From Agathobacter sp. (lineage in GTDB: Bacteria; Bacillota; Clostridia; Lachnospirales; Lachnospiraceae): a DNA stretch of 32,061 nucleotides. The notes below the pieces were generated by a model. It saw nothing but the letters and a program-made list of their open reading frames with translations, searched no databases and had not been told where the DNA came from. The stretch lies in the NCBI GenBank assembly GCA_017623935.1, contig JAGAOC010000003.1, positions 1 to 32,061 on the forward strand, written 5' to 3'. Positions 5,462 through 29,434 of the stretch are shown piece by piece; position 1 is the first letter of the stretch, and every line of letters begins with the position of its first letter. The translations under genes and the position numbers were made by a program.

Positions 5462-5965
5462 TTAGCGTGACAAGCTCTTTCCTAATCTATAAGAATCCAA
5501 CTGGGCTTTTGCCAGCTTAACCAGTTCGTCCATCTGGCTGATCTGCGCCTTCGGGATAATATAAGCATTCACCCGGTTGCTGTAAATTAAGACATGCTTC
5601 TTAGTTGCGATCATCTTATAAACACTCTCCCAAGGTAAAACCCCTTCTTCTTCTCCCTGAGTAACCGTTACTCCTTTCTCATCGAAGGAATAATGCAACA
5701 CACCTGACAACACGGTATTTACTTTCATGGTGCTCTTCGCCCGAAGCCAAAGTGTCCCTGGAATATACGCTACGATCACGATCGCGATTACAACATACAT
5801 AATTCCATAGCCAATATTTCCTTCCCCAAACTGAGCTCCTGCCATTACCAAACACAGGATCCCAATTAAAATGGAGATGATCCCCTGGCTGCTTAAATAG
5901 GTCTGACGGATATTAAATCCAAACAGATCCTTATGATCGATCTGAACATCAAATTCAATTTTCAT
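5462..5965 (-). CDS. YcxB-like C-terminal domain membrane protein
   Basis: I chose the start at 5965 (MKIEFDVQ) because AAGGAG sits six bases before that ATG; the longer frame to 6070 has no ribosome site and would run through the ribU terminator. The 167-residue product has an N-terminal strand-rich segment, two adjacent hydrophobic helices (about residues 25-75) and a C-terminal soluble half. That half matches the YcxB-like pattern (LHYSFDEKGVTV..., LPWESVYKMIATKKHVLIYSNRVNAYIIPK), a small PH-like fold that follows membrane helices. The function is unknown. It leads the tsaE operon. Confidence 0.75.
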   Translation of the reverse strand: MKIEFDVQIDHKDLFGFNIRQTYLSSQGIISILIGILCLVMAGAQFGEGNIGYGIMYVVIAIVIVAYIPGTLWLRAKSTMKVNTVLSGVLHYSFDEKGVTVTQGEEEGVLPWESVYKMIATKKHVLIYSNRVNAYIIPKAQISQMDELVKLAKAQLDSYRLGKSLSR

Positions 5966-6017
5966 GATACTCTCCTTCATAACTGCTCTTCGGAAAGAGT
6001 CAAGATTTTTATTCTTC

Positions 6018-6026
6018 ATTATAGCA
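6018..6026 (-). promoter_or_regulatory. Extended -10 promoter of the tsa operon
   Basis: On the minus strand the sequence TGCTATAAT gives a perfect -10 (6018-6023) with the TG extension. It lies just downstream of the T-tract of the ribU terminator. The -35 region would fall inside the T-tract and is poor. Transcription would start near 6010, about 45 bases before the ribosome site of the YcxB-like gene. Confidence 0.65.
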
Positions 6027-6032
6027 TTTCTA

Positions 6033-6069
6033 ATAAAAAATGAAAAGGGGAAATCACTTCCCCTTTTCA
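6033..6069 (-). terminator. Rho-independent terminator of ribU
   Basis: A 12-bp inverted repeat (tgaaaaggggaa at 6041-6052 with ttccccttttca at 6058-6069) is followed on the minus strand by TTTTTTATTA. It begins one base beyond the ribU stop codon and separates ribU from the tsa operon promoter. Confidence 0.92.
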
Positions 6070-6720
6070 CTATGACTGACGACCTTTTAAAATTGGTGAT
6101 AATGGTTTGTATACCAACATGGTAATGAATACTGAGAATAATCCTTTCAGCATGGTAAATGGCATATTAAAGCATACCAGACACTGCAGGATGGAATCGA
6201 TCTTTGCCCAAGGCACGATTGCCTGATAAGCAGAAAGAATAGCTTCTTTTGACATGAAATTATAGTAGATCGGATAGGTCAGGAAATAATTAGAAAATAC
6301 GCTGAGTACTCCCATAACTACCATTCCTGTTAATGCACCGATCAATGCGCTCTTGCGGGTCTTTTTGTATTTATAGATCAAACCTGCCGGAAGCACAAAG
6401 GCTACACCTAAGATGAAATTGGAAAGTTCGCCTACACCACCGGTAGAGGTAATGGTCAGATGAATGAGATTCTTGATCAGGCAGACAAAGATTCCGCAAG
6501 AAGGCCCCATAGAAAAGGCTCCGATCAATGCTGGCAATTCTGACAGATCCATCTTAATAAATCCTGGCATAAATGGCACAGAAAAATCCAAGAACATGAG
6601 TACATATGCTACTGCTGATAACATAGCTGTTACCGCTAAAAATCGCACATTGACTCTGCCGCTTGTGCTTGCCTTTGTCCGAGGTTTTGTTTGTGTTGTT
6701 ACTGTGGTTGTGTTGTCCAT
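6070..6720 (-). CDS. ribU: Riboflavin ECF transporter S component
   Basis: The start at 6720 (MDNTTTVT) is chosen because AAAAGGAG precedes it; a longer frame to 6828 would cross a terminator hairpin. The 216-residue membrane protein has about six hydrophobic helices, as in S components of energy-coupling factor transporters, and is expected to capture riboflavin outside the cell. The segment FMLDFSVPFMPG-like (FLDFSVPFMPGFIKMDLSEL) with KMDLSELPALI matches RibU, as does KNLIHLTITSTGGVGELSNF. The ECF energizing module is not in the window. Regulation is by the FMN riboswitch directly upstream, which independently supports the substrate. Confidence 0.93.
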   Translation of the reverse strand: MDNTTTVTTQTKPRTKASTSGRVNVRFLAVTAMLSAVAYVLMFLDFSVPFMPGFIKMDLSELPALIGAFSMGPSCGIFVCLIKNLIHLTITSTGGVGELSNFILGVAFVLPAGLIYKYKKTRKSALIGALTGMVVMGVLSVFSNYFLTYPIYYNFMSKEAILSAYQAIVPWAKIDSILQCLVCFNMPFTMLKGLFSVFITMLVYKPLSPILKGRQS

Positions 6721-6792
6721 AATGATTCTCCTTTTACAATTAGATTTGTAAGTTCGGAACTCTTCATAATTAAAAAAGGTCTTGCTTTGTGC

Positions 6793-6825
6793 AATAAAAA
6801 TCCCCGGACGATAGATCATCCGGGG
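6793..6825 (-). terminator. Riboswitch expression-platform terminator
   Basis: The 7-bp stem CCCCGGA/TCCGGGG (6802-6808 and 6819-6825), extended inwards by further pairing, is followed on the minus strand by ATTTTTATT. It lies between the FMN aptamer and the ribU start codon, so it is most simply the conditional terminator that forms when FMN is bound. A second hairpin (6866-6883) lies between it and the aptamer. Confidence 0.85.
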
Positions 6826-6954
6826 CAATTATGGTTCTAGGTAATATAGGGTTCATATATACATCTGCCTCTTTACAAAGGCACCTCAATGACGTCTCTT
6901 AGAAATGGTTCTTGCACCACTCTCTAAATATGAACACTCATGTTACTTGAATCA

Positions 6955-7115
6955 CTCTTCTCTCATCCAGACTATACTGTCGGTTCCGGATTCTCACCGG
7001 ATCGGCTGCTTTCGCAGTTCACGGACTTACTGATGCAATTTAAAAATTGCTGATTCAGTTCACCGTCGGTCGGGAATTCACAGATACTTCTGTGGCACCC
7101 TGCCCCGAAGAATTC
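6955..7115 (-). ncRNA. FMN riboswitch (RFN element)
   Basis: The minus strand carries the conserved RFN blocks in order: TTCGGGGCAGGGTG, AATTCCCGACCGACGGT, AGTCCGTGA, GATCCGGTGAGAATCCGG, and ACCGACAGTATAGTCTGGAT followed by GAGAGAAGA. Together these form the FMN aptamer. It precedes ribU and a terminator, so FMN should switch the transporter off by early termination. Two peripheral arms are decorated: a 6-bp hairpin (7079-7094) is inserted in the P2 loop region, and the next variable arm is an extended AT-rich hairpin (about 7031-7060). Confidence 0.96.
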
Positions 7116-7133
7116 CTTATTCACTTCTCTGCT

Positions 7134-16620: not shown

Positions 16621-16747
16621 TGCGTTTCCTCCTATTCCAGGTAAGAGCCCTTCGGGTCTCCTCCTCTTTTGCTGCGGCAAATGCTGATGTATTTGCGCTG
16701 TCTGTCCAGCAGCTATTGATCGGTTCCATTTTCTGGTTTCCGTCAAT
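16621..16747 (-). promoter_or_regulatory. Structured leader of panT
   Basis: The untranslated leader is about 127 bases. Reading the minus strand it shows a helix ATTGACGG with CCGATCAAT (16740-16747 with 16715-16723, one bulged A). A GCTG/CAGC stem (16697-16710) comes next. It is followed by GCAAAT/ATTTGC (16691-16696 with 16677-16682) and a CCC-gaa-GGG hairpin flanked by AGAG/CTCT (about 16641-16668). The panT ribosome site follows. I do not recognise a known riboswitch, and no strong terminator lies inside it, so any control would be at translation or by another route. Confidence 0.5.
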
Positions 16748-16753
16748 GTCCTC

Positions 16754-16782
16754 ATACTACCACTACTTTTTTCTAAGGTCAA
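16754..16782 (-). promoter_or_regulatory. panT-coaBC promoter
   Basis: The minus strand has -35 TTGACC (16777-16782), a 17-base spacer and -10 TAGTAT (16754-16759). The -35 overlaps the end of the T-tract of the upstream terminator. Transcription would start near 16747. Confidence 0.78.
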
Positions 16783-16783
16783 G

Positions 16784-16814
16784 AAAAAAAGATTGCGCCT
16801 GGCGCAATCTTTTC
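16784..16814 (-). terminator. Terminator of the GGADGPT-protein gene
   Basis: A strong hairpin, GATTGCGCC/GGCGCAATC (16791-16799 and 16801-16809) with flanking A/T pairs, is followed on the minus strand by TTTTTTTCTTG. It lies 36 bases after the stop of the upstream gene and directly before the panT promoter. Confidence 0.92.
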
Positions 16815-16849
16815 GTGCGGTATAGCGAAGCAATAAACTTCTTCTCTAC

Positions 16850-17512
16850 TTATTTTGAAGTCAAGATCGTCACAAGGGAGCTATAACGTTCACTCTGGTT
16901 CTCAATATCTTCCTGGGTCACTCCATAATATAAGTACACATCCTGGCACAATCTTTCTAAAATCTTGGTTGCTTTTTTACTTCCGCTGAAGGAGCAGGAA
17001 AGATGTGCAAAGTTATGCTCCAAGATAAATTCAATTTCTCCTCCTTCGGGAATCCGAATGATATAAATATGAAAATCCATTGGAATTTCTTCATCCGAAA
17101 CTTCTCTTGCTATCTGACTTCGCTCTTCCATTTTCTCAAGAAAAGTAAGAACTGATTCCTCGCTGGTAGGATCCGGTGGGGCTACTTCCTGTAAATCCCC
17201 CAACAACTCCGGTCTGTGCTCAAGGATCAAAGATTCCTTTAAATTACTCCTCGCTTCTTCATATTGATCAGATCTTGAAGAAAGCTCTTTCGCTCCATAC
17301 TCCTCTATCAGATACGCCGTTACTTCTTCTAAGGTATGAGGATCTGCTTCAATCCCCTTTTCTGCCTTATTCCTTTTTCTTCTATAAGAATTCTTTTTAA
17401 TTCGCTCTATGATTCCCTGATTTTCATTTGGCTCTGCCACAAATACGCTGGTCGGTCCATCTGCTCCACCAATAATGGATACGGAAGAAGTTGCTTTCTT
17501 GGATTTTTTCAT
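16850..17512 (-). CDS. Uncharacterised protein with N-terminal GGADGPT motif
   Basis: The start at 17512 (MKKSKKAT) follows AAGGAG by seven bases; the longer frame to 17572 lacks a ribosome site. The 220-residue protein is soluble and charged. Residues about 10-25 read SVSIIGGADGPTSVFVA. This strongly resembles the conserved GGADGPT segment of the beta subunits of sodium-pumping decarboxylases, but no membrane helices follow. A basic stretch (KKNSYRRKRNKAEKG), an acidic helical middle and a C-terminal alpha/beta region (MDFHIYIIRIPEGGEIEF..., HLSCSFSGSKKATKILERL) come after it. I do not recognise the C-terminal domain. It has its own extended -10 promoter and terminator, so it is a single-gene unit. 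Confidence 0.8.
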   Translation of the reverse strand: MKKSKKATSSVSIIGGADGPTSVFVAEPNENQGIIERIKKNSYRRKRNKAEKGIEADPHTLEEVTAYLIEEYGAKELSSRSDQYEEARSNLKESLILEHRPELLGDLQEVAPPDPTSEESVLTFLEKMEERSQIAREVSDEEIPMDFHIYIIRIPEGGEIEFILEHNFAHLSCSFSGSKKATKILERLCQDVYLYYGVTQEDIENQSERYSSLVTILTSK

Positions 17513-17543
17513 GGTAATCTCCTTACTTGTCATAATGTAAAAC

Positions 17544-17552
17544 ATTATACCA
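17544..17552 (-). promoter_or_regulatory. Extended -10 promoter for the GGADGPT gene
   Basis: The minus strand reads TGGTATAAT, a perfect -10 (17544-17549) with the TG extension. No good -35 is present at 16-18 bases; that region belongs to the degenerate repeat array. Transcription would start about 20 bases before the ribosome site. Confidence 0.65.
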
Positions 17553-17639
17553 CACTTAAACAGCGTCGCCACTCAAAAAAGCCGTCACACTTAAAAAGCT
17601 GCCACTCAGAGAAAGAGCCACCACTCAGAGAAAGAGCTG
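17550..17639 (-). repeat. Degenerate tandem repeat of terminator 3' arms
   Basis: Five head-to-tail units of about 16-19 bases lie directly after the hydA terminator. On the minus strand each begins GTGkGG or GTGTG, continues with a GCAGC-like block and ends in a T-rich run. Plus-strand units start at 17550, 17569, 17586, 17602 and 17621. The last two (17602-17639) are nearly identical 19-mers. The unit resembles the 3' arm plus T-tract of the adjacent terminator. Confidence 0.75.
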
Positions 17640-17664
17640 CCACACAAATTCTGTGTGACAGCCC
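17631..17664 (-). terminator. hydA operon terminator
   Basis: On the minus strand GGCTGTCACAC (17652-17662) pairs with GTGTGGCAGC (17637-17646) around AGAATTT, followed by TCTTTCTCT. It begins seven bases after the hydA stop. The T-tract is imperfect, but further GTG-GCAGC-TTTTT arms follow immediately and could pair with the same 5' arm. Confidence 0.82.
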
Positions 17665-17670
17665 CTTTGA

Positions 17671-19353
17671 TTAATGTTCGTTATGTAACAGCTTATGTTC
17701 TTTTCCTTTTAAGATTCCTTCATACAGTGACTGTACGATTGGGTTCTCATTAGAAAGTTTGATCTGAGCTGCTTTATCAATATTGTACATTCCGTCATAA
17801 CGCGCCTGTTTGGTACGAGGTCCGATTGGAGTCGGCTGACCGCCGCCGGCGATACAACCTCTCTTACAAGCCATGACTTCTACGAAATCATAATGTACTT
17901 CGCCTTTTTCCAGTTTCAAAAGAATCTCTTCTGCAGATTTTAATCCATTTACAATGGCGATCCGCACTTCTCTCTCTCCTAACTGAACAGTACATTCCTT
18001 GACGCCTTCTACACCGCGGACACCGCAGAAACTGATCTGCTCTAAATCTTCAATCTTATTGCTGTTGATCAGTTTTCTAAGGACAGCTTCTGTTACACCA
18101 CCGGTAACACCAAAGATCGCTGCAGAACCGGAAGCCAGACCAAATGGCATATCTAAGGATTCTGATGGCATTCTGGACAGATCGATACCGCCTTCCTGGA
18201 TCATACGGGTAACTTCTGTTGTGGTAAGTACGAAATCTACATCCTGTACTCCATCTGTAAAATGTTCCGGACGAACGATCTCATCCTTCTTAGCGGTACA
18301 AGGCATAATAGAAACCACGATGGTCTCTCTGGTGTCTTCTTTATTCATGCGGGCTTCTTCTTTGATCAAAGCACCAAACATCTGCTGTGGAGAACGGCAG
18401 GTAGAGATATTCTTCCTAAACTGTGGGAATTTCTTCTCACAGAAATTGATCCATCCTGGGCAACAGGAAGTAAATAATGGCAGGTTCTCTCCTGATTCCA
18501 AACGCTCTACTAACTCTTTGGACTCTTCCATTACGGTAAGGTCTGCACCAAAGTTCGTATCGTAGATCTCATCAAATCCCATTCTACGAAGGGCTGCTGC
18601 TAATTTACCTAAAGAATTCTCTCCTTTTGGAATTCCAAACTTATCACCGATCGCTACACGAACTGCTGGAGCGATCTGAACTACGACACGTTTATTCTTA
18701 TCCGCAATTGCTTCCCATACGGAATGAACATTAGATTTAATGGTAATGGCACCTGTTGGACATACCACTCGACACTGTCCACATCCCACACAGTCTGTCT
18801 CGGACATCTGCTTATTAAATGCCGGCATAACTCTCATCTTAGAGCCACGGTATGCAAAATTCAGAACGCCTACCCCCTGGATCTCTTCACAGGTCCGGAC
18901 ACAGTCACCACATAAGATACATTTATTCGGGTCAATGACCACGCAGTTAGAAGAAGTATCCAGTGGCTGAATCTCTTTGGTGTTCTCGAAACGTACCCGA
19001 TCTACTCCTAATTGAGTTGCTAATTTCTGTAATTCACAGGTTCCGTTAGCACGACAGGTAGTACAATCTCTACAGTGAGATGCTAAAAGAAGCTCCAAGA
19101 TCAGCTTTCTATGGTGCTGTAATTTTGGTGTGTTGGTGTAAATGACCATGCCTTCCTTTGGTACTTCGGAACAGGATGCAAACACTTTTCCCCTGTCATC
19201 TTCTACTACACACATACGGCAAGCTCCATAAGTAGAAAGCTCAGAGTGGTAGCAGAAGGTTGGAAGGTCAATTCCTGCTTTACGAATAACAGAAAGCAGA
19301 TTCTTTTCCCCTTCTAAAGGTACTTTTCTATTATTAATTGTAATGTACTTCAT
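17671..19353 (-). CDS. hydA: NADH-dependent [FeFe] hydrogenase, catalytic subunit
   Basis: The 560-residue protein is the H2-forming subunit of a trimeric cytosolic hydrogenase. In order it has an N-terminal [2Fe-2S] domain (C34, C45, C48, C61), a His-Cys3 cluster site (H93, C97, C100, C106), and two [4Fe-4S] sites (C145/148/151/155 and C188/191/194/198). The H-cluster motifs follow: TSCCPGW (295-301), MPCTAKKDE (350-358) and C496/C500 in VMACKRGCIAGGGQP. All ligands are present. It lacks the extra C-terminal [2Fe-2S] domain of the Thermotoga-type HydA, which fits the shorter NADH-linked forms (often labelled group A6). It lies 11 bases after hydB. Confidence 0.95.
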   Translation of the reverse strand: MKYITINNRKVPLEGEKNLLSVIRKAGIDLPTFCYHSELSTYGACRMCVVEDDRGKVFASCSEVPKEGMVIYTNTPKLQHHRKLILELLLASHCRDCTTCRANGTCELQKLATQLGVDRVRFENTKEIQPLDTSSNCVVIDPNKCILCGDCVRTCEEIQGVGVLNFAYRGSKMRVMPAFNKQMSETDCVGCGQCRVVCPTGAITIKSNVHSVWEAIADKNKRVVVQIAPAVRVAIGDKFGIPKGENSLGKLAAALRRMGFDEIYDTNFGADLTVMEESKELVERLESGENLPLFTSCCPGWINFCEKKFPQFRKNISTCRSPQQMFGALIKEEARMNKEDTRETIVVSIMPCTAKKDEIVRPEHFTDGVQDVDFVLTTTEVTRMIQEGGIDLSRMPSESLDMPFGLASGSAAIFGVTGGVTEAVLRKLINSNKIEDLEQISFCGVRGVEGVKECTVQLGEREVRIAIVNGLKSAEEILLKLEKGEVHYDFVEVMACKRGCIAGGGQPTPIGPRTKQARYDGMYNIDKAAQIKLSNENPIVQSLYEGILKGKEHKLLHNEH

Positions 19354-19364
19354 TTTCTTCCCCC

Positions 19365-21251
19365 CTAGCTTTCAATATAAACCGCACCAAATGGGCAGGC
19401 ACTTTCACAGGCACCACACTTGATACATACAGAACTGTTAATAGTAAATGGCTTCTTGATCTCGCCAGAAATCGCTCCCACTGGGCAGTTTCTTGCGCAC
19501 TTAGAACAACCTTTACACACTTCTGGGTTAATTGCGTATTTACGGAGGGCTGAACAGGTGTGAGAAGCGCATTTCTTCTCTACAACGTGTTCTTCATATT
19601 CCTTGCGGAAAAGTTTCAAGGTACTGACAACCGGAAGGGCTGCGCTCTTTCCAAGACCACAAAGGGCTGTTTCAGAAATGGTCTGAGCCAATTCTTCTAA
19701 CATATCCAGATCTTCTAAGGTTCCGTTTCCTTTTACAATGCGCTCGAGGATCTCTAACATTCGTTTTGTTCCTTCACGACATGGAACACATTTTCCACAG
19801 CTCTCGTTCTGAGTAAAATTCATAAAGAAACGGGCAACTTCAACCATACAGGTATTTTCGTCCATAACTACCAGACCACCGGAACCGATCATTGCTCCCA
19901 TCTTCTTCAAGGAGTCAAAATCCAGGTTAATATCCAGATGTGGTGTAATCAGACATCCGCCGGATGGTCCACCGATCTGAACAGCTTTGAACTTAGCGTC
20001 CCCTTTGATTCCGCCACCAATATCATAGATAACTTCTTTTAAGGTGGTTCCCATTGGCACTTCGATCAGACCTGTATTCTTTACGCTTCCTGTTAAAGCG
20101 AAAGCTTTTGTTCCCGGACTCTTCTCTGGTCCAATGGTCTTGTACCAGGCTGCTCCTTTATTAATGATCATTGGAACGTTGGCATAAGTCTCTACGTTAT
20201 TTAAAACTGTAGGTTTTCCAAATAATCCCTGCTCTACAGTACGAGGCGGTTTTACTCGAGGCATTCCTCGACTTCCCTCAATGGAAGCTGTCAGGGCACT
20301 TCCTTCTCCACATACGAAGGCTCCTGCTCCACGGTTAATATGTAACTGGAAAGAGAAATCTGTTCCTAAGATATTATCTCCTAAAAGTCCACAGGCAGTA
20401 GCATCCGCAATGGCTTTTTTCAGACGATTGATAGCCAGTGGATATTCTGCTCTAACATAGACATAACCTTCCTGAGCTCCAACAGCATAGGCGGCGATCA
20501 TCATTCCTTCAATCATCTTATGAGGATCACCTTCCATGATGCTTCGATCCATAAATGCCCCCGGATCTCCTTCATCACCATTACATACGATGTAACGGAT
20601 CTTCTCTGGCTGTCTCGCTACCTGTTTCCATTTATATCCGGTCTGGAATCCTCCGCCCCCACGGCCTCTTAAGTTGGATTCATAGATCTCTTCTACTACT
20701 TCATCCGGTGTCATATCAAATAAAGCTTTTGCTAATGCCTGATATCCACCATGAGCAATAGCATCCTCAATATGCTCTGCATCAATATGTCCGCAGTTCT
20801 CTAAAACAAGTCTGGTCTGCTTCTTATAAAATGGAATCTCTTCCTGTTTTGGATATTCTACTCCATCCTGTTTATAAAGAAGATGGTGAAGGACTTCACC
20901 TTTCTTAATGGTCTGCTCATAGATTGCTTCGCAGTCATCCACAGATACCTTAGTATAGAGGATTCCCATTGGCTCAATCCTTACCAATGGTCCCATTTCA
21001 CAGAAACCATGGCATCCGCTCTTCTTAACTTCGATCGGTCCATCCCCATGGGCGATCTCCGGTCCGAAACACACTTCTACATTTGGATCATTCTCTACCA
21101 TCTTACAGATTTTCTCATAAATCTGTCCGGAACCTCCTGCCAGACAGCCGGTTCCTGCACAAATTAAGATACGGCACTTGCTGTTATCTACGATCTGCTT
21201 CGTGTCTTTCTGCAGTGCCTGCAACTTTCCTCTACTGTCAATTCTTTCCAT
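19365..21251 (-). CDS. hydB: NuoF-like hydrogenase subunit (NADH/FMN)
   Basis: I choose the ATG at 21251 (MERIDSRG) because AGAGG lies eight bases before it; a GTG at 21260 would touch the ribosome site. The 628-residue protein has a thioredoxin-like [2Fe-2S] domain (CAGTGCLAGG..., SGCHGFCEMGP), the NuoF FMN loop GRGGGGFQTGYKW and the NADH-binding YVYVRAEYP region. An N3-type cluster site (SCGKCVPCREGT) and two C-terminal [4Fe-4S] sites (CKGCSKCARNCPVGA and CIKCGACESACPFGA) follow. This is the full HydB layout that carries electrons between NAD(H), ferredoxin and HydA. The start is one base from the hydC stop. Confidence 0.95.
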   Translation of the reverse strand: MERIDSRGKLQALQKDTKQIVDNSKCRILICAGTGCLAGGSGQIYEKICKMVENDPNVEVCFGPEIAHGDGPIEVKKSGCHGFCEMGPLVRIEPMGILYTKVSVDDCEAIYEQTIKKGEVLHHLLYKQDGVEYPKQEEIPFYKKQTRLVLENCGHIDAEHIEDAIAHGGYQALAKALFDMTPDEVVEEIYESNLRGRGGGGFQTGYKWKQVARQPEKIRYIVCNGDEGDPGAFMDRSIMEGDPHKMIEGMMIAAYAVGAQEGYVYVRAEYPLAINRLKKAIADATACGLLGDNILGTDFSFQLHINRGAGAFVCGEGSALTASIEGSRGMPRVKPPRTVEQGLFGKPTVLNNVETYANVPMIINKGAAWYKTIGPEKSPGTKAFALTGSVKNTGLIEVPMGTTLKEVIYDIGGGIKGDAKFKAVQIGGPSGGCLITPHLDINLDFDSLKKMGAMIGSGGLVVMDENTCMVEVARFFMNFTQNESCGKCVPCREGTKRMLEILERIVKGNGTLEDLDMLEELAQTISETALCGLGKSAALPVVSTLKLFRKEYEEHVVEKKCASHTCSALRKYAINPEVCKGCSKCARNCPVGAISGEIKKPFTINSSVCIKCGACESACPFGAVYIES

Positions 21252-21252
21252 C

Positions 21253-21726
21253 CTACGCACCTCTCAATTCCCGAATCAGCTCTGAAGCAGCATCCGGTGT
21301 CATTGCCGGATATACTTTATCGTTTACAGTTAATACCGGAGCCAGTCCGCAGGCTCCCAGACAAGATACGGTCTCCAATGTGAACATCATATCGTCTGTG
21401 GTTGGTTTCTCCTTAGAAACTCCTAATTCTGCATATAACCGTTCCAGGATCGCGGTGGATTTACGTACATGACAAGCTGTTCCATCACATACCTTGATAA
21501 CATATTTTCCTTTTGGTTCAAAAGAAAAATTCTCGTAGAAAGTTGCCACACTAAAGGCTTTTGATTCTGTAATGCCAATCTGTTTTGCAACATACACCAG
21601 AAGTTCCGGTGGTAAATATCGATATTCACTTTGAATATCTTGAATGATTGGAATCAAAGCAGAAGAAGTTGCTCCATGTAGAGCAATGATCTCATCTGCT
21701 TTGTCGTAAAAACTCTTGTCTAACAT
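21253..21726 (-). CDS. hydC: NuoE-like hydrogenase subunit, [2Fe-2S]
   Basis: The 157-residue protein matches HydC/NuoE, a thioredoxin-like [2Fe-2S] subunit of the trimeric hydrogenase. The cluster ligands are visible in CDGTACHVRKS and in SCLGACGLAPV. The N-terminal helical part (LIPIIQDIQSEYRYLPPELLVYVAKQ) is typical. The ATG follows AGGAGG. The upstream EIIC-EAL gene ends only 16 bases before this start with no terminator, so hydCBA probably share its transcript. The gene order hydC-hydB-hydA is the common one. Confidence 0.95.
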   Translation of the reverse strand: MLDKSFYDKADEIIALHGATSSALIPIIQDIQSEYRYLPPELLVYVAKQIGITESKAFSVATFYENFSFEPKGKYVIKVCDGTACHVRKSTAILERLYAELGVSKEKPTTDDMMFTLETVSCLGACGLAPVLTVNDKVYPAMTPDAASELIRELRGA

Positions 21727-21742
21727 ATTTTCCTCCTATACA

Positions 21743-23842
21743 TTATATTTCTTTTGTGCTTTCCCCATTTGTCGTAATGATATATTCGATAAACTCATCC
21801 AAAGAAATTGGTTTACTGAATAAATATCCCTGATACCAGTCACAACCTAATTCTTTGAGCTTATTCCAGTGCTCTTCTGTCTCTACATATTCTGAGATGA
21901 CTTTTATGTTCAATCGATTTGCTAATTCTACGATAGAAGCAACGATCTTCTGGTTGGTCTCACTCTGCAGGATATTTCTAACCAGTGATCCATCTAATTT
22001 TACTACCCCAAAATAATTACTCTGCAGATAGATCAATGATGTGTGTCCCATTCCAAAATCATCAATAAGTAAGGTATGACCACAGTCTTTTAACTCCCGG
22101 ATCTTACTTACTACAGATTCCTTATTAGAAAGTACATCCTGTTCCGTGATCTCTACCCAAAGATACTCTGGTGCTACCTGATATTTTTCTAGAGATGCTC
22201 TAATACTCGGAACCACATCCCACTGAAGAGATTTGGCGGTAATATTTACAGAGATCTTGAATTTTCCATCATATGCACTAGAAATCTGATTAATGCTTCT
22301 AACTGCCATTTCAAAGATCCGCTTCTCCAATTCCGGCAGCAATTCTCCCTGTTTTGCCAGATAAATGGTCAGTGGTGGATAGATACATCCATATAACGGA
22401 TGGGTCCATCTGAGTAATGCTTCTGCTCCGACGCATCTTCCTTCATTATCCACCTGCGGCTGGTAGACCAGATAGAGGTCATCATTCTTAATGGCTTTCT
22501 CTAAGTCTTCCAATAACATACGGGACATCATTCCCAGACTGTCGCCTCTATTCAAGAATTTTGGCTCTTCGTTTGCCTCTTCCTTCTCCTGCAATTTCTC
22601 TACCAAAACTCTTAATCGTTCTTTTGCATAATTCTCCTGCACTCTCTTATTCAACCGAATAAATGGATAATAAATTCCCATACCAACAAGAATACAGACT
22701 AACTGCAGGATCGTTCCCCTTATGGAGCCGGTTGCCATATATCCACTGAGCAGGATCGGTGTAGACCACGGGATCTCCTGCACCAAATGAGGCACCAGTC
22801 CCAAGGCTGTTGCAGCATAAGCAATGCTATATGACACCATTGGAGTCAGCAAAAATGGAACTGCCATTACTGGATTTAAAACGATTGGAATTCCAAAATT
22901 CAATACTTCATTAATGTTAAAAACTACTGCAAAAGAGCCAATCTTTGCTAACCGTCCCATTCGCTCTTTTCTAAAGAATAACAACAATACAAGCAGAACA
23001 CAGATAGTGGTTCCACAGCCACCCATTACAACATATATATCAAAAAAGCTCTTACTAAAAACAAACTCTTCTGAAACTGTTGCAAAAGTTGTCTGTGCTA
23101 CCGGCTCTAATAAATGGCTTCCATGGAAACCGCATACCCATAATAGATGCAATAAAAACGTATATAACAAACCCGAACCATAATTATTCTCCAAGCGGTC
23201 AAAAAGATTGCAGACTACTGTAGAGAACAGATCATTGATACTATGTACTCCAAAACCATACCATAAAACCTGGGTGCTCAGGATCACTACACCAATGACT
23301 ACCATCATTGGAAAAATCGTTGCAACCGCTGTTACACAAATATTCTCCATTCCCATGGTATACTTCTTCAATGATATCGTGGTATTTTTCTTGATCTTCT
23401 CGTAGATAAAACATGACAGCAATGTAACTACGATTGCTGAAAAACTTCCCGTTATTCCCAGATCTGATATATCAAAATACTCACTGCCAATATTCAGTTG
23501 AGTTCCGTAGGCCCCCAAAGCTACAACCACGTACATCGCAGCTTTCTCCACCATCTGGTTTTGTTCCATGCCATAACATAAACTTAGTGTAATAACAAGT
23601 GCCAATGAAAAAAGACCAAATGTGCCTTGGTAGATCATATTCAATATCACTTGCACCTTCCCTAAGATTCCTCCCATAAATGGTGCCGAATAATCTACAT
23701 AAGGCAGGCTCATCAGCGCACAGGCTACTCCTCCAATCAAAAGCATCGGAATCATCATTGTCAATCCATGACGAATAACCGTAAAGAAGAAGTTATCTTC
23801 TATCCAATATGTTATCTTCTTTAATTTCTCTTTTACCCCCAT
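21743..23842 (-). CDS. PTS EIIC (lactose/cellobiose type)-EAL domain fusion
   Basis: I place the start at 23842 (MGVKEKLK), preceded by GAGGG; the longer frame begins at a GTG with no ribosome site. The 699-residue product joins an N-terminal membrane region of about ten helices (1-400) resembling the CelB/LacE sugar-permease family (GFHGSHLLEP, FNINEVLNFGIPIVLNP) to a charged coiled linker. The linker leads to a C-terminal EAL domain (about 450-690). EAL residues needed for c-di-GMP cleavage are all present: EAL at 474, N533, E564, D594/D595, K615, E651 and Q671. No EIIB or EIIA is fused or adjacent, so it may sense a sugar rather than phosphorylate it. It leads into hydC-hydB-hydA. Confidence 0.92.
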   Translation of the reverse strand: MGVKEKLKKITYWIEDNFFFTVIRHGLTMMIPMLLIGGVACALMSLPYVDYSAPFMGGILGKVQVILNMIYQGTFGLFSLALVITLSLCYGMEQNQMVEKAAMYVVVALGAYGTQLNIGSEYFDISDLGITGSFSAIVVTLLSCFIYEKIKKNTTISLKKYTMGMENICVTAVATIFPMMVVIGVVILSTQVLWYGFGVHSINDLFSTVVCNLFDRLENNYGSGLLYTFLLHLLWVCGFHGSHLLEPVAQTTFATVSEEFVFSKSFFDIYVVMGGCGTTICVLLVLLLFFRKERMGRLAKIGSFAVVFNINEVLNFGIPIVLNPVMAVPFLLTPMVSYSIAYAATALGLVPHLVQEIPWSTPILLSGYMATGSIRGTILQLVCILVGMGIYYPFIRLNKRVQENYAKERLRVLVEKLQEKEEANEEPKFLNRGDSLGMMSRMLLEDLEKAIKNDDLYLVYQPQVDNEGRCVGAEALLRWTHPLYGCIYPPLTIYLAKQGELLPELEKRIFEMAVRSINQISSAYDGKFKISVNITAKSLQWDVVPSIRASLEKYQVAPEYLWVEITEQDVLSNKESVVSKIRELKDCGHTLLIDDFGMGHTSLIYLQSNYFGVVKLDGSLVRNILQSETNQKIVASIVELANRLNIKVISEYVETEEHWNKLKELGCDWYQGYLFSKPISLDEFIEYIITTNGESTKEI

Positions 23843-23914
23843 AATACCCTCACATCTATTCACGTTCTACAAATAAAATAACCCTTATAAGTAATAATAA
23901 CACAAGTTTTCCTT

Positions 23915-23943
23915 TTTGTACATTATTGGCATAAATTTATCAA
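23915..23943 (-). promoter_or_regulatory. Possible promoter of the EIIC-EAL/hyd unit
   Basis: The minus strand has -35 TTGATA (23938-23943), a 17-base spacer and a -10 TACAAA (23915-23920) that matches four of six consensus bases. The region is very AT-rich and other weak pairs are possible. The leader would be about 65 bases. Confidence 0.4.
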
Positions 23944-24005
23944 CTATTTTCTTTCAAGTGTATATAACTTACAAATTTATTTTATCATTCTCGGAACCAA
24001 GATCA

Positions 24006-24032
24006 CCAGGAAATTCCAGAGGAATTTCCTGG
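24006..24032. repeat. Perfect 12-bp inverted repeat
   Basis: The arms ccaggaaattcc (24006-24017) and ggaatttcctgg (24021-24032) are perfect complements around a 3-base loop. No T-tract follows on either strand, so it is not a plain terminator. It lies between the etfA terminator and the promoter region of the EIIC-EAL gene. Confidence 0.7.
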
Positions 24033-24039
24033 CACACGC

Positions 24040-24070
24040 AAAAAAAGGCATGACCCACTGGGTCATGCCT
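24040..24070 (-). terminator. Terminator of the butyrate operon
   Basis: On the minus strand AGGCATGACCCA pairs with TGGGTCATGCCT and is followed by TTTTTTT. It starts 16 bases after the etfA stop and ends the thl-hbd-bcd-etfB-etfA transcript. Confidence 0.95.
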
Positions 24071-24086
24071 CTTGATTCAGCAATGA

Positions 24087-25127
24087 TTATTTGCCAAGTT
24101 CTGCTTTTAATGCTGCTGTTAAAGCTGGAACTACTTTATTTAAGTCTCCAACGATACCGTAATCAGCTACATCAAAGATTGGAGCATCTTCATCTTTATT
24201 GATCGCAATGATAAGATCAGATTCTTCCATACCTGCAACGTGCTGGATCGCTCCAGAAATACCAATTGCGAAGTATACGTTTGGACGAACTGTTTTACCA
24301 GTCTGTCCTACCTGGTAATCTACTGGTAACCAACCGTTTTCTACAACGGCACGAGAACAGCTTACCATTCCGCCTAACACGTCAGCAAGTTCTTTGATCA
24401 TCTCAAAGTTCTCTTTGCTTCCAACTCCACGTCCACCAGATACTAAGATCTTAGCGTCCATGATGTTCTCTACGGAGCCAACTGCTTTTACTACGTTTAA
24501 GATTTCAACATATCTGTTGTTTGGAGTAAATCCTGGATTGTATTCAATCACTTCTGCTTTTCTTCCAGCTTCTTTAGGAAGTTTCTGCATAACACCTGGA
24601 CGAACAGTTGCCATCTGTGGGCGGTTGTCAGGACAAGCGATTGTTGCGATTGTATTTCCACCGAATGCTGGACGAGTCATCAGTAACTGATTGTGTTTCT
24701 GTTCCTGTCCTGCTACTGGATTCAGTGGGAAATCACCGATCTCAAGTACTGTACAGTCAGCTGTAAGACCAGTTGCTACTCTTGCAGAAACTGTTGGTCC
24801 TAAATCACGACCGATAGCTGTTGCACCTACTAACATGATTTCTGGTTTGTATTCATTGATTACAGAAGCTAATGCATGAGCATATGGCTCAGTTCTGTAT
24901 GTCTCTAATTCTGGATCATCCACAACGATTACTTTGTCTGCGCCGTATTCAGCTAATTCATCAACTAATCCTTTTACGTTAGATCCAAGAAGTACTGCTG
25001 TTACATCAGTATTTAAATCTGCAGCTAATTCTTTCGCTTTTCCGATTAATTCAAAAGCGATTGAGCTGATTTCATTGTCTACCTGCTGTGCGTAGATATA
25101 TACGCCCTTATATTCTTCTAAACCCAT
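24087..25127 (-). CDS. etfA: Electron transfer flavoprotein alpha subunit
   Basis: The start at 25127 (MGLEEYKG) is preceded by GGTGA; a GTG four codons earlier is less likely. The 346-residue protein has the N-terminal alpha/beta domain (VYIYAQQ, VTAVLLGS, GADKVIVVDD, LVGATAIGRDLGPTVSAR) and the C-terminal FAD-binding domain. The latter carries ILVSGGRGVGSKENF, VGQTGKTVRPNVYFAIGISGAIQH and DLIIAINKDEDAPIFDVADYGIVGD. With EtfB and Bcd it should form the complex that uses NADH to reduce crotonyl-CoA and ferredoxin together. It is the last gene of the operon, 28 bases after etfB. Confidence 0.96.
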   Translation of the reverse strand: MGLEEYKGVYIYAQQVDNEISSIAFELIGKAKELAADLNTDVTAVLLGSNVKGLVDELAEYGADKVIVVDDPELETYRTEPYAHALASVINEYKPEIMLVGATAIGRDLGPTVSARVATGLTADCTVLEIGDFPLNPVAGQEQKHNQLLMTRPAFGGNTIATIACPDNRPQMATVRPGVMQKLPKEAGRKAEVIEYNPGFTPNNRYVEILNVVKAVGSVENIMDAKILVSGGRGVGSKENFEMIKELADVLGGMVSCSRAVVENGWLPVDYQVGQTGKTVRPNVYFAIGISGAIQHVAGMEESDLIIAINKDEDAPIFDVADYGIVGDLNKVVPALTAALKAELGK

Positions 25128-25155
25128 TTTGTTCACCACTTTTCTTAATATAATA

Positions 25156-25938
25156 TTAGATTACGTGTTTCTCTTTTAACTTATCCATTAAATATGTAAC
25201 GGATTCTGCTGCGTCAAGTGTTACTTTCTCGCCAGCACCTTTACGAACTTTATCAGATGCTTTTGCAATCTTGGTAGGAGATCCCTTTAATCCAAGGTTA
25301 GAATCATCAACATCCTTTAAGTCTGCTCTGCCCCAAACGGTAACTTCTTTGTCATATGCATCGAAGATTCCACCTGGAGTCATGTATCTTGGCTCGTTTA
25401 ATTCAGAAAGTGCTGTGATCAGACATGGCATCTGAGCTTTTACTTCATGATATCTGTCTTCATACTGACGTTTAACGATTACAGAATTTCCATCAACCTT
25501 AATGTCTTCAGCATAAGAGATTACTGGAAGTCCAAGATGTTCCGCGATCTGTGGTCCTACCTGAGCGGTATCACCGTCGATAGCCTGACGTCCTGTGATG
25601 ATCAGATCATAATCAATATTTCTTAATGCACCAGCGATTGTTGTAGAAGTTGCCCATGTATCAGCTCCTCCTAAAACTCTGTCAGTAACAAGGATTGCAT
25701 TGTCTGCACCCATTGCTAATGCTTCACGAAGTACATCATCAGCTTTTGGAAGACCCATTGTAAGAACGGTTACTTCTGCGCCGATTTCGTCTTTAATTCT
25801 AAGTGCTGCTTCAAGACCAGCTTTATCGTCTGGGTTCATGATTGCAAGCATAGCTGCTCTATCAAGAGTTCCGTCTGGGTTGAACTTAACGCCGCCCTTT
25901 GTATCAGGAACCTGTTTAATACATACTACGATTTTCAT
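25156..25938 (-). CDS. etfB: Electron transfer flavoprotein beta subunit
   Basis: The start at 25938 (MKIVVCIKQVPD) follows AAGGAG by nine bases; the longer frame runs back into bcd and is rejected. The 260-residue protein carries the EtfB signature VLREALAMGADNAILV and the GRQAIDGDTAQVGPQIAEHLGLP segment typical of bifurcating Etf, which binds a second FAD. The C-terminal tail ends in LKEKHVI. Its genetic position with bcd and etfA fits the butyryl-CoA dehydrogenase/Etf complex. It begins 40 bases after the bcd stop. Confidence 0.96.
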   Translation of the reverse strand: MKIVVCIKQVPDTKGGVKFNPDGTLDRAAMLAIMNPDDKAGLEAALRIKDEIGAEVTVLTMGLPKADDVLREALAMGADNAILVTDRVLGGADTWATSTTIAGALRNIDYDLIITGRQAIDGDTAQVGPQIAEHLGLPVISYAEDIKVDGNSVIVKRQYEDRYHEVKAQMPCLITALSELNEPRYMTPGGIFDAYDKEVTVWGRADLKDVDDSNLGLKGSPTKIAKASDKVRKGAGEKVTLDAAESVTYLMDKLKEKHVI

Positions 25939-25978
25939 GTATTTGTTCTCCTTCATAATTTTTAATCTTGTATCGCGA

Positions 25979-27133
25979 CTATTTAAGAACTGCGCCAGAG
26001 ATAACCATACGCTGAACTTCTGAAGTTCCTTCGTAGATCTCTGTGATCTTAGCGTCACGCATCATACGCTCTACATCGTATTCTCTGATATATCCGTATC
26101 CACCGAATAACTGAACAACTTCTGTTGTTACAGCCATTGCTGTTTCAGCTGCGAATAATTTAGCTTTAGCTGCTTCTACAGAGTATACTTTCTGAGTAGC
26201 TTTAGCCATAGCTGCTTTGTAAACTAAAAGCTGAGCTGCTTCAATTCTTGTTGCCATATCAGCAAGTTTGAACTGAGTATTCTGCTGAGCTGCGATAGAA
26301 CGTCCGAACTGTTTTCTTTCTTTTGTATAAGCAACTGCTCTCTCGAAAGCACCTTCTGCAATACCAAGTGCCTGAGCTGCGATACCGATACGTCCACCAT
26401 CAAGAGTGTGCATAGCGATTGGGAATCCTTTTCCTTCTGGTCCGAGAAGGTTTTCCTTTGGAATTCTGCAATCTTCAAAGATTAATTCATATGTAGAAGA
26501 TCCGCGGATACCCATTTTCTTTTCTTTTGTTCCGAAGGAGAATCCTGGAGCATCTTTGTCTACGATAAATGCAGAGAAGTTCTTTTTCTTTCTGCCTCTC
26601 TTATCTTCTACAACGCTTGTGATAGCGATTACGATATAAACGTCTGCAACTTTACCATTGGTAATGAAACATTTAGATCCGTTTAATACCCATTCGTCAC
26701 CATCTAATACAGCTTTTGTCTGAGCTCCCTGAGCATCAGTACCAGCACCTGGCTCTGTTAATGCGAAAGCACCTAACTTCTCGCCAGTAGCAAGTGGTCT
26801 AACATATTTCTGTTTCTGTTCTTCTGTTCCGTAGGTTAAGATTGGATCTACGCAAAGAGAAGTATGTGCGGAAACAACAACACCTGTTGTAGCGCAAACT
26901 TTAGATAACTCTTCAACACACATTGTGTATGTTAAAGGATCACAGCCCTGTCCGCCATATTCCTTTGGAACTGGGATTCCCATGAATCCGTATTTCTGCA
27001 TCTTCTTAACTGTTTCCATAGGAAACTCTTCTGTTTCGTCAGTTTCCTGTGCAAGCGGTTTTACTTCTGTTTCCGCAAACTCTTTGAAGAGGTTACGGGC
27101 CATCTCATGTTTTTTGTCTAAAGTAAAATCCAT
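25979..27133 (-). CDS. bcd: Butyryl-CoA dehydrogenase (acyl-CoA dehydrogenase)
   Basis: The start at 27133 (MDFTLDKK) follows GGAGG by nine bases. The 384-residue flavoprotein has the short-chain acyl-CoA dehydrogenase fold. The FAD/substrate loop [16 protein letters not shown], the [10 protein letters not shown] segment, [13 protein letters not shown], the [23 protein letters not shown] helix region and the catalytic Glu in IYEGTSEVQ are all present. In this operon it reduces crotonyl-CoA to butyryl-CoA with EtfAB. A hairpin lies between it and hbd. Confidence 0.95.
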
Positions 27134-27192
27134 GATATAATCCTCCAAATTGATTGTTTTATTTTTTATAAATGATACCTTCAAACGAATTT

Positions 27193-27224
27193 AGCAATAC
27201 ATTCCCCAAAGGGAACGTATTGCT
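27193..27224 (-). other. Intercistronic hairpin, hbd-bcd
   Basis: Arms agcaatacattccc (27193-27206) and gggaacgtattgct (27211-27224) form a 14-bp stem around CAAA. In the minus-strand RNA the only non-Watson-Crick pair is G-U, a pattern expected of an RNA structure. No T-tract follows, so it is unlikely to terminate. A role in transcript processing or protection is inferred. Confidence 0.75.
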
Positions 27225-27244
27225 CAAATTACTTTTCAGGTTTC

Positions 27245-28084
27245 TTATTTAGAATAATCGTAGAATCCGATTCCTGTCTTACGTCCTAATTTGCCAGCAC
27301 GTACCATCTTCTTAAGAAGTGGATGTGGACGATACTTAGGATCTCCTGTCTCATCATATAATACGTTCATGATTGCAAGACAGATATCAAGACCAACTAA
27401 ATCACCTAACTCTAATGGTCCCATTGGATGGTTAGCACCAAGTTTCATAGCTGTGTCAACACCTTCAACAGTTGCAACACCGTCTGCTACGATTCCGATA
27501 CCTTCGTTGATCATTGGGATTAAGATTCTGTTTACTACGAAACCAGCAGCTTCATTAACTTCTACTGGAGTCTTTCCGATCTCTTTAGAGATCTCAACGA
27601 TCTTATCTCTTAATTCATCTGGTGTATTCTCACCTTTGATAACCTCGATCAGTTTCATTACAGGTGCTGGATTGAAGAAATGCATACCGATAACTGGTCT
27701 GTCAAGTCCTGCTCCGATCTCTGTAATAGAAAGGGAAGAAGTATTTGTTGCGAACATACAGGTAGATGGAACGATGTCCTGTAACTCTTTGAATGTCTGT
27801 TTCTTAATATCCATAACTTCAAGAGCTGCTTCTACAACTAAATCTGCATCTGTACAGATATTCTTAACACCTGTTGTGATCTTGTTCAGGATCTTGTCTG
27901 CATCTTCCTGAGCCATTTTGCCTTTTTCTACTCTTTTTGCAAAGCCTTTTGCAATTCTAGCTTTACCATTTGCAGCAAATTCTTCGTTAATATCACACAG
28001 ATATACTTCATATCCTTCTGTCTGCGCAAATGCCTGTGCGATTCCGGAACCCATTGTTCCTGCACCAATTACACCAACCTTCAT
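27245..28084 (-). CDS. hbd: 3-hydroxybutyryl-CoA dehydrogenase
   Basis: The 279-residue enzyme reduces acetoacetyl-CoA to 3-hydroxybutyryl-CoA with NAD(P)H. The Rossmann motif [14 protein letters not shown] is at the N terminus. [11 protein letters not shown], the catalytic-His segment [16 protein letters not shown], the [17 protein letters not shown] segment and the C-terminal [18 protein letters not shown] are all standard. Length is typical. The ATG follows AGGAGG. It is the second gene of the operon, and in many butyrate-forming clusters a crotonase gene would stand between it and thl; here there is only a hairpin. Confidence 0.96.
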
Positions 28085-28118
28085 TATTAGATCCTCCTGA
28101 TAAATTTTATTATTTTTA

Positions 28119-28149
28119 GAACGAACAGCAGCTTTTCCGCTGTCCGTTC
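28119..28149 (-). other. Intercistronic hairpin, thl-hbd
   Basis: Arms gaacgaacagc (28119-28129) and gctgtccgttc (28139-28149) form an 11-bp stem with a 9-base loop; the single mismatch in DNA becomes G-U in the minus-strand RNA. A smaller 7-bp hairpin, attctat-gta-atagaat (28154-28170), precedes it in the transcript. No T-tract follows, so termination is unlikely. Confidence 0.72.
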
Positions 28150-28189
28150 ATGGATTCTATGTAATAGAATAATGACAACTCAGTTCGGA

Positions 28190-29374
28190 TTAGTACTTCT
28201 CAACGATTGTAGAGCAGCCCATTCCACCACCGATACATAATGTAGCAAGTCCGCGGTTAGCTCCGCTCTTCTGCATCTCATGTAATAAGGTAACAAGGAT
28301 ACGGCATCCGGATGCTCCTACTGGATGTCCAAGAGCGATTGCTCCACCGTTAACATTAACTTTGGACATATCGAAGTTCAAGTCTCTTGCAACTGCGATA
28401 GACTGAGCAGCAAATGCTTCGTTTGCTTCGATCAGATCGATATCATCAATTGTAAGTCCTGTTCTCTCTAATACTTTTCTTGTAGAAGCTACAGGTCCAA
28501 CACCCATGATCTCTGGCTCTACTCCGCCAAGTGCTCCTGCTACCCATGTTGCCATTGGAGTAACACCGAGTTCTTTTGCTTTCTCTTCGCTCATTACAAC
28601 GATTGCTGCTGCACCATCGTTGATACCAGAAGCGTTACCAGCTGTGATAAGTCCGCCTTCTTTTCCAGAGCAGCATTTTAATTTAGCTAAAGACTCAACT
28701 GTTGTACCAGCTCTTGGTCCTTCATCAGTTGCGAAATCTACGATATCTTTCTTAACTTTAACTGGTACTGGAACGATCTCATCGTTGAATTTGCCTGCAG
28801 CGATCGCAGCTTCGCATTTCTGCTGGCTGTTTGCTGAGAACTCGTCTAATTCTTCACGAGTGATTCCGTATTTATCACATACGTTCTCAGCTGTGATCAT
28901 CATATGGTAGTGATTGAATGCATCTGTTAATGCATCGTTAACCATAGTATCGATGATTGTTGCGTTGTTCATACGGTATCCGAAACGAGCTTTTGTCATA
29001 GCATATGGAGCCATAGACATGTTCTCCATACCACCTGCTACTACGATATCAGCCTGTCCAGCAAGGATCTGTGTAGCTGCTTCGTTTACACATTTCAGAC
29101 CAGAACCACAAACTACATTCAGAGTAACTGCTGGTACTTCGATTGGTAAACCAGCTTTGATAGATGCCTGACGAGCAACGTTCTGTCCCTGTGCAGCCTG
29201 GATTACGCATCCCATTAATACTTCATCAACCATCTCAGGCTTAACACCTGCTCTGTTTAATGCTTCTTTAATAACGATTGCACCAAGATCTGCAGCTGGA
29301 GTATTGCTTAATGCTCCGCCCATTCTGCCGATTGCAGTACGGCAAGCGCCTGCTAAAACAACTTTCTTTGCCAT
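28190..29374 (-). CDS. thlA: Acetyl-CoA C-acetyltransferase (thiolase)
   Basis: The 394-residue enzyme joins two acetyl-CoA into acetoacetyl-CoA, the entry to the butyrate route. It has the acyl-enzyme Cys in [26 protein letters not shown], the [13 protein letters not shown] segment, the His motif [17 protein letters not shown] and the C-terminal active-site Cys in [13 protein letters not shown]. Length is normal. The ATG follows AAAGGAGAT. It is the first gene of the operon, with a promoter at 29440-29468 and a Rex-like operator between promoter and start. Confidence 0.97.
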
Positions 29375-29416: not shown

Positions 29417-29434
29417 CTGTTAATTTTTTAACAA
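29417..29434 (-). promoter_or_regulatory. Rex-like operator
   Basis: On the minus strand the site reads TTGTTAAAAAATTAACAG, matching the Rex consensus TTGTTAAnnnnTTAACAA in all but the last base. It lies five bases downstream of the -10, over the expected transcription start. Rex is the NADH/NAD+-sensing repressor known to control butyrate genes in clostridia, so this would release the operon when NADH is high. Confidence 0.85.

Follow-up and report, generated by a model that had tools for sequence, protein, structure and literature searches.

Does a gene for a cyclic di-GMP (c-di-GMP) phosphodiesterase with a sugar-permease domain, ending a few bases before a hydrogenase operon, mark a working partnership, or did the two genes come together by accident? 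The question is raised by a stretch of 32,061 nucleotides from an Agathobacter sp. genome (assembly GCA_017623935.1, contig JAGAOC010000003.1, positions 1 to 32,061; henceforth the window). Here a phosphotransferase system (PTS) permease domain, EIIC, is fused to an EAL domain, and the fusion gene (EIIC-EAL) is directly followed by hydC, hydB and hydA, the genes of a trimeric [FeFe] hydrogenase; the range 21253-23842, singled out by a first-pass annotation made from the letters alone, consists of hydC and EIIC-EAL. That annotation held the linkage to hydCBA to be the point that matters. The comparisons described below point elsewhere: a sensory phosphodiesterase and an acquired hydrogenase probably share a lineage-specific transcript by accident of insertion.

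The fusion gene and the hydrogenase genes behind it

The features of the putative transcript are, in the direction of reading:

24040..24070, minus strand: intrinsic terminator after etfA (11-bp stem, 3-base loop, 7 T), read by eye and not in the list of the terminator scanner
23894..23922, minus strand: promoter-like sequence upstream of EIIC-EAL (TGTACA, 17 bases, TATTAT, with TG before the second hexamer), from a consensus scan
21743..23842, minus strand: EIIC-EAL fusion, 699 aa (EIIC at residues about 19-400, linker 401-445, EAL 446-685)
21253..21726, minus strand: hydC, [2Fe-2S] thioredoxin-like subunit, 157 aa (PF01257, 167.5 bits)
19365..21251, minus strand: hydB, NADH/FMN (flavin mononucleotide) subunit with 4Fe-4S domains (start probably at ATG 21251; GTG 21260 is the first codon of the listed frame)
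17671..19353, minus strand: hydA, [FeFe] hydrogenase catalytic subunit (TIGR02512, 469.8 bits, cut-off 405.95)
17636..17662, minus strand: hairpin after hydA with a weak T tract, read by eye

EIIC-EAL is a single open frame with candidate starts at GTG 23863 or, more likely, ATG 23842. Both Pfam domains are complete in it (PTS_EIIC, PF02378, 106.3 bits, cut-off 30.7; EAL, PF00563, 202.6 bits, cut-off 31.3), and the EIIC half aligns over nearly its full length with the solved cellobiose-type EIIC 3qnq (E 4.5e-38). Conservation was read from alignment A2 of 19 rows, from which G002, whose frame is short, and L009, regarded as duplicating G034, were excluded. The sugar-site motifs are retained, with H240 of the HG motif in 18 of 19 rows and E312 of the NINE motif in all 19; the residues matching H240 and E312 are presumably those that contact sugar in 3qnq. 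In the EAL domain, residues E474, N533, E564, E567, D594, D595, K615, E651 and Q671 are invariant in 19/19 rows, and all of these but E567 are taken by us to have metal-binding or catalytic roles. By its domain matches and active-site positions, the protein is thus a predicted lactose/cellobiose-type PTS EIIC joined to an EAL domain with an intact catalytic set, as the first-pass annotation had proposed.

The two genes are on the same strand, 16 bp separate the EIIC-EAL stop from the hydC ATG (21727-21742, with AGGAGG inside), and no terminator was found in this gap, in agreement with the earlier description. The genes hydC, hydB and hydA then follow as a same-strand series, each with its expected domains, and the hydA translation holds the three H-cluster motifs, TSCCPGW, MPCTAKKDE and MACKRGCIAGGGQP. 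Model NF040763 gave 699.6 bits on the hydrogenase, below its 765 cut-off. Upstream lies a series with domain matches to thiolase, 3-hydroxyacyl-CoA dehydrogenase, acyl-CoA dehydrogenase and two electron-transfer flavoprotein (ETF) subunits, which we take, from their order, to be thl-hbd-bcd-etfB-etfA; after etfA, the terminator scanner lists another hairpin at 24034-24004. No minus-strand promoter-like match was listed by the consensus scan between 23894 and 18261. The scan returned 33 matches against 39.1 expected, i.e., no more than chance, so the single match ahead of EIIC-EAL carries little weight. One transcript from EIIC-EAL through hydC and hydB to hydA is the simplest reading and is considered probable, with the hairpin at 17636-17662 as its probable end. 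The earlier proposal that the fusion is made together with HydABC therefore stands as probable co-transcription in this genome, and fails as a conserved partnership for the reasons that follow.

Distribution of the linkage and origin of the block

Genomes of the genus (62), the family (397) and a class sample (391) were compared, with the window's own genome (G000) included in all three counts. At genus level, a close hydC (at least 70% identity) was found in 8/62 genomes, with more distant matches in 4 more, and the fusion in 18/62; both occurred in two genomes (G000 and G027), on separate contigs in G027, and adjacent in one, the window's own. At family level, hydC (E <= 1e-45) was found in 82/397 genomes and the fusion in 47/397, and nine carried both, against 9.7 expected by chance. 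Among the 46 other family carriers of the fusion, 38 were without hydC at that threshold and eight had it elsewhere, on different contigs in six and at least 118 kb away in two, leaving the window's genome as the only one of 397 with the two genes adjacent. Inspection of 20 neighbourhoods, 29 family loci and 16 class loci, some of which repeat a genome, revealed no further hydC beside the fusion. A few loci end soon downstream of the fusion: G019 and G023, which are without any hydC genome-wide, and also G580 and G479, where no genome-wide search for hydC was made; of the 16 class loci, two stop no more than 100 bases beyond the fusion, and another encodes an EIIC that lacks EAL. The idea of a conserved EIIC-EAL/hydCBA module was hence rejected on the genus, family and class samples, co-occurrence being at chance level and adjacency confined to the window. 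The search for the same arrangement in relatives had been set beforehand as a test capable of refuting the first-pass annotation, and it showed the linkage not to be conserved; at the same locus of the genus mate G007, these genes are missing altogether. By these counts, the hydCBA linkage appears specific to the window's lineage and not a conserved functional module.

The fusion itself belongs, by profile matches, to a known and widespread type, as had been suspected. It is nearly full length in the 18 genus genomes, and 45 of the 47 family matches span at least 670 of 692 profile positions, the two partial ones being G310 (positions 173-689) and G411 (ending at a contig edge); seven of the 47 contain one internal stop. 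In the class sample the profile matched 17/391 genomes, 15 with both domains; of the other two, G479 is cut at a contig end and G783 is an EIIC without EAL. Full-length relatives occur among plasmid-collection records in Clostridioides difficile (NZ_CP149720.1:45159-47234, 36% identity, on a 163-kb plasmid record) and Acetoanaerobium, with a weaker one in Vibrio. As separate observations, a Succinatimonas assembly (L010:7941-15600) carries three tandem full-length EIIC-EAL genes with asparagine in place of the HG-motif histidine; the copy in G002 (L053:7703-9893) is split over two frames of 98 and 627 aa and therefore may be broken or misassembled; and in G023 a divergent [FeFe]-hydrogenase-like protein of 482 aa (L043:7036-8484) adjoins EIIC-EAL. 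Six other genus genomes have EIIC-EAL in a different, common neighbourhood with crt (6/6), serS and glyA (5/6) and secDF (5/6), named from the proteins of one genome; the butyrate cluster of the window (thl-hbd-bcd-etfB-etfA, 24087-29374) is without crt. In the review PMC8846402, PTS_EIIC is listed among the domains paired with GGDEF, EAL or HD, and is called rare. An experimental study of an EIIC-EAL fusion was not recognised in the open-licence literature.

How the two genes came to be neighbours is indicated by the locus of G007, where thl-hbd-bcd-etfB-etfA is followed, after 223 bp with no genes between, by an ECF gene and coaBC. Blastn similarity between the window and G007 ends at 24086 and restarts at 16670; between these points lie 7415 bp in the window and 170 bp in G007. 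As this genus mate has the same locus without the genes in question, EIIC-EAL and hydCBA lie in a 7.4-kb block:

16671..24085, strand not assigned: stretch without counterpart in G007 (from blastn flanks and gene orders), holding EIIC-EAL, hydCBA and a small gene at 16850-17572

The interval between etfA and ECF-coaBC is variable: it is empty in G007 and holds five other open reading frames (ORFs) in G002 and four or five in G044, where the ECF match is absent. The simplest reading is that the block is an insert gained in the window's lineage. Guanine-cytosine (GC) content of 14 genes of the locus is 0.39-0.45, at third positions 0.28-0.56.

In a tree of hydC+hydB, built from 29 family loci (81 other family genomes have hydC) and the seven genus mates with a close hydC (11 have any match), the window's copy falls together with those of G261 and G453, which belong to other genera (support 95/95), and its monophyly with the seven genus mates was rejected (p-AU 0.00026). 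In a coaBC tree, which covers 29 of 36 searched genomes (the other seven gave no match), the window falls in a 100/100 clade with the genus mates G002, G044, G007, G008 and G031, in none of which hydC was found at E <= 1e-15. The placement of the window's hydC+hydB with other genera suggests lateral arrival, and lateral gain of hydCBA in the window's lineage is the best, and a probable, reading. EIIC-EAL pairs with G092 of another genus (94/94; 91/95 in a second tree); the first of these trees used 21 of the 29 other family loci, G340 and seven loci whose match contains an internal stop having been excluded. Topology tests for three groupings gave p-AU values of 0.119 (with six genus mates), 0.092 and 0.038, and a definite lateral origin of the fusion gene was not accepted on this basis.

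Two observations on the surroundings of the block are added. The small gene at 16850-17572, peptide SIIGGADGPTSVF, has its own promoter-like sequence by eye and matches Na+-transporting decarboxylase beta subunits weakly (26.4 bits, below the 31.6 cut-off, with its tail unmatched). The ECF-coaBC leader at 16621-16670 is conserved with G007 and has no Rfam match above chance; it is possibly an unlisted cis-regulatory RNA.

Control of hydC, PTS partners and competing explanations

On the preferred reading, EIIC-EAL would be a c-di-GMP phosphodiesterase anchored in the membrane, with a lactose/cellobiose-type EIIC serving as its input domain; whether the EIIC dimer has bound sugar, or which transport state it is in, would act through the short linker on the activity of the paired EAL domains. 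The gene lies in the 7.4-kb block that separates the butyrate (etf) operon from the ECF-coaBC pair and is most simply seen as an insert, and the hydCBA of probable lateral origin follows directly behind it; as hydCBA is without a separate upstream region, it would probably be read from the promoter ahead of EIIC-EAL.

An alternative is that hydC is read from a promoter of its own within the 3' portion of EIIC-EAL, making the two genes neighbours without common control. Elsewhere hydC does seem to start its own unit: 33 of 36 other hydC loci have an upstream ORF in the available sequence, and the gap measures 85-300 bp in 25 of the 33, from which it follows that hydC usually opens a unit of its own. 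The nearest upstream ORFs are unrelated (33 singletons, many short and doubtful), and genus mates with hydC have common genes somewhat further upstream. A Rex-like operator (at least 12 of 14 consensus bases, within 300 bp) precedes hydC in 13/36 of these loci. Consensus scans, moreover, miss many real promoters. Against an independent promoter stands the window itself, in which the stretch that normally holds the hydC leader is EIIC-EAL coding sequence, where the promoter scan listed nothing on the minus strand and no Rex-like operator was found before hydC (best Rex-model score in 600 bp upstream, -4.3). This alternative is judged unlikely.

The promoter-like sequence ahead of EIIC-EAL is adjoined by one further feature:

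23926..23943, minus strand: weak Rex-like operator TTGATAAATTTATGCCAA (score 9.1, against 16-23 for the training sites)

By plain consensus it has 10/14 bases, a level reached by 36% of shuffles and not significant. With a matrix from the hydC sites of relatives its score was reached by 9/500 shuffles, and the window holds two matches scoring at least 9, against a mean of 0.4 in ten Markov copies. As the matrix was built from sites picked for their consensus match and five stretches were scored, the site is treated as suggestive only. No Rex-like site was found in 16 other EIIC-EAL leaders (best 4.7; G033 and G002 excluded for unclear starts). The other window match is a strong Rex-like operator at 29417-29434 (score 20.3), 60 bp before thl, which suggests redox control of the whole butyrate operon. 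A protein with a Rex-family N-terminal domain is encoded on contig C97 of the same genome. For Caldicellulosiruptor bescii, PMC6391272 reports Rex binding upstream of hydrogenase genes in gel shifts, and Hyd operon expression little changed on rex deletion (log2 -0.13 to -0.38). The arrangement would fit an insertion of EIIC-EAL between a Rex-controlled promoter and hydC, but by eye the EIIC-EAL leader has no other resemblance to the hydC leaders of relatives. A riboswitch before EIIC-EAL was considered and rejected: window-wide, only an FMN riboswitch (6951-7116, upstream of minus-strand ORFs at 5462-6828) and two tRNAs reach the gathering score, and a search of the EIIC-EAL leader alone gave one chance-level match.

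The second alternative concerns the EIIC domain, which might still move sugar and be phosphorylated via a borrowed EIIB, so that EAL would report transporter flux instead of simple binding. The earlier statement that EIIB and EIIA are missing was borne out for the 15 scanned proteins of the window, in which neither was seen. Beyond it, lactose-type EIIA (PF02255) was found in none of the 18 genus genomes with the fusion, the window's genome among them, while 3 of 14 controls were positive. The window's assembly has 101 contigs and is 80% complete, which weakens its single absence; nine of the 18 carriers are at least 90% complete with contamination of at most 5%. EIIB (PF02302) is present in 14 of the 18, and phosphorylation by a borrowed EIIB is possible for that reason; four carriers (G033, G029, G028 and G055, assemblies 78-90% complete) gave no EIIB match. 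The PF02896 family, which also covers pyruvate phosphate dikinase, was matched in 17/18 carriers, EI-like by score and frame in 16, with G056 giving a weaker match in a longer frame. Support for borrowing thus comes from EI and EIIB in most carriers together with the retained sugar-site residues. It is countered by the lactose-type EIIA count, by the four carriers without EIIB, and by the one EIIB match of the window's genome, which forms part of a 746-aa frame that also contains another EIIC and lies about 1.3 kb ahead of an EI C-terminal-domain match (contig C71). Borrowing is regarded as rather improbable. A general PTS is, by these matches, present, yet the EIIC of the fusion is without findable cognate soluble partners; with lactose-type EIIA in 0/18 carriers, the most likely role of this EIIC is that of a receptor, not of a complete PTS permease.

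Improbable as well is the third alternative, a functional module that pairs HydABC with a co-produced sugar sensor acting to lower c-di-GMP, in such a way that H2 formation and lifestyle change in step and selection keeps the link. The short terminator-free gap on one strand and the want of an upstream region proper to hydC would fit it, and the weak Rex-like site at the shared promoter, absent from the 16 other leaders, resembles redox co-control. The adjacency, seen once in the family and once in the genus, and the chance-level co-occurrence argue the other way, as do nine other genomes that keep both genes apart (G027 and the eight of the family). Equally little credence is given to a related version, in which the acquired hydrogenase is the tail of a phosphodiesterase transcript under a Rex-type operator and the orphan EIIC fine-tunes as a sugar receptor; if this were true, a rise in NADH would lead to H2 being made and c-di-GMP being lowered, with the cell leaving its surface or fibre.

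A reading of the EAL domain as a c-di-GMP receptor that has no enzyme activity is very unlikely: its loop 6, DDFGMGHTSL, deviates from the more usual DDFGTGYSSL, but all checked metal-binding and catalytic positions are invariant, and phosphodiesterase models reach up to 156 bits, compared with 52 for the LapD receptor model. An assembly artefact at the EIIC-EAL/hydC junction, to which the fragmented assembly and the single occurrence of the arrangement would lend themselves, is most improbable, given block ends that are definite at flanks common to G007 and G002, two genes intact over the junction, a fitting ribosome-binding site and the narrow GC range of the 14 genes.

Besides the EIIB of most carriers, several points weigh against the preferred reading. 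In G262, a same-strand ORF ends only 12 bp before hydC. Instead of a gain by the window's lineage, near relatives may have lost hydCBA several times, or G007 may have lost the block; the coaBC tree does not recover the genus as a single clade, though its deep forks are weak; and the EIIC-EAL trees do not settle whether the fusion is a native or an acquired copy. Sugar sensing by EIIC is deduced from fold and motifs, and PTS_EIIC is described as a phosphoreceiver domain, not a sugar receptor, in the review PMC8846402. Coupling of EIIC to EAL through the linker is putative, and the linker is the least conserved part of the protein (0.51 in A2, against 0.59 and 0.68 for the two domains).

Meaning and comparison with known systems

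The breadth of the EIIC-EAL type, which reaches many genera of the window's family as well as further families of its class, together with the lactose-type EIIA count, means that the conversion of a transporter domain into a c-di-GMP input can be put to the test in these proteins, quite apart from the hydrogenase. The hydCBA linkage offers no evidence of a partnership between signalling and hydrogen; it would illustrate how a gained operon loses its own control region and falls under the promoter of a neighbour.

Compared with other EIIC-EAL fusions (Pfam PTS_EIIC and EAL), the window protein has the same domain order and length, and hydCBA directly downstream was found only here. Its EIIC resembles that of 3qnq and of TIGR00359 and TIGR00410 in the nearly full-length alignment and in the HG and NINE motifs; its score, 187.7 bits with TIGR00410, lies below the cut-offs of these two models (434.45 and 236, respectively). 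It differs from EIIC of the cellobiose/diacetylchitobiose type by its C-terminal EAL domain and by the lack of the EIIA and EIIB of its class. In Vibrio cholerae, as described in PMC6877527, a separate EIIA binds an EAL phosphodiesterase and places it under control by sugar supply (PdeS-EIIAGlc). The likeness lies in the pairing of a PTS component with an EAL phosphodiesterase, and the difference in the permease domain being covalently fused in the window. The hydrogenase, finally, is like trimeric HydABC of the bifurcating type in its hydC-hydB-hydA order, cofactor domains and H-cluster motifs, and it departs from its relatives, which mostly have an upstream spacer (and a Rex-like site in 13 of the 36), in that the upstream region is here replaced by EIIC-EAL.

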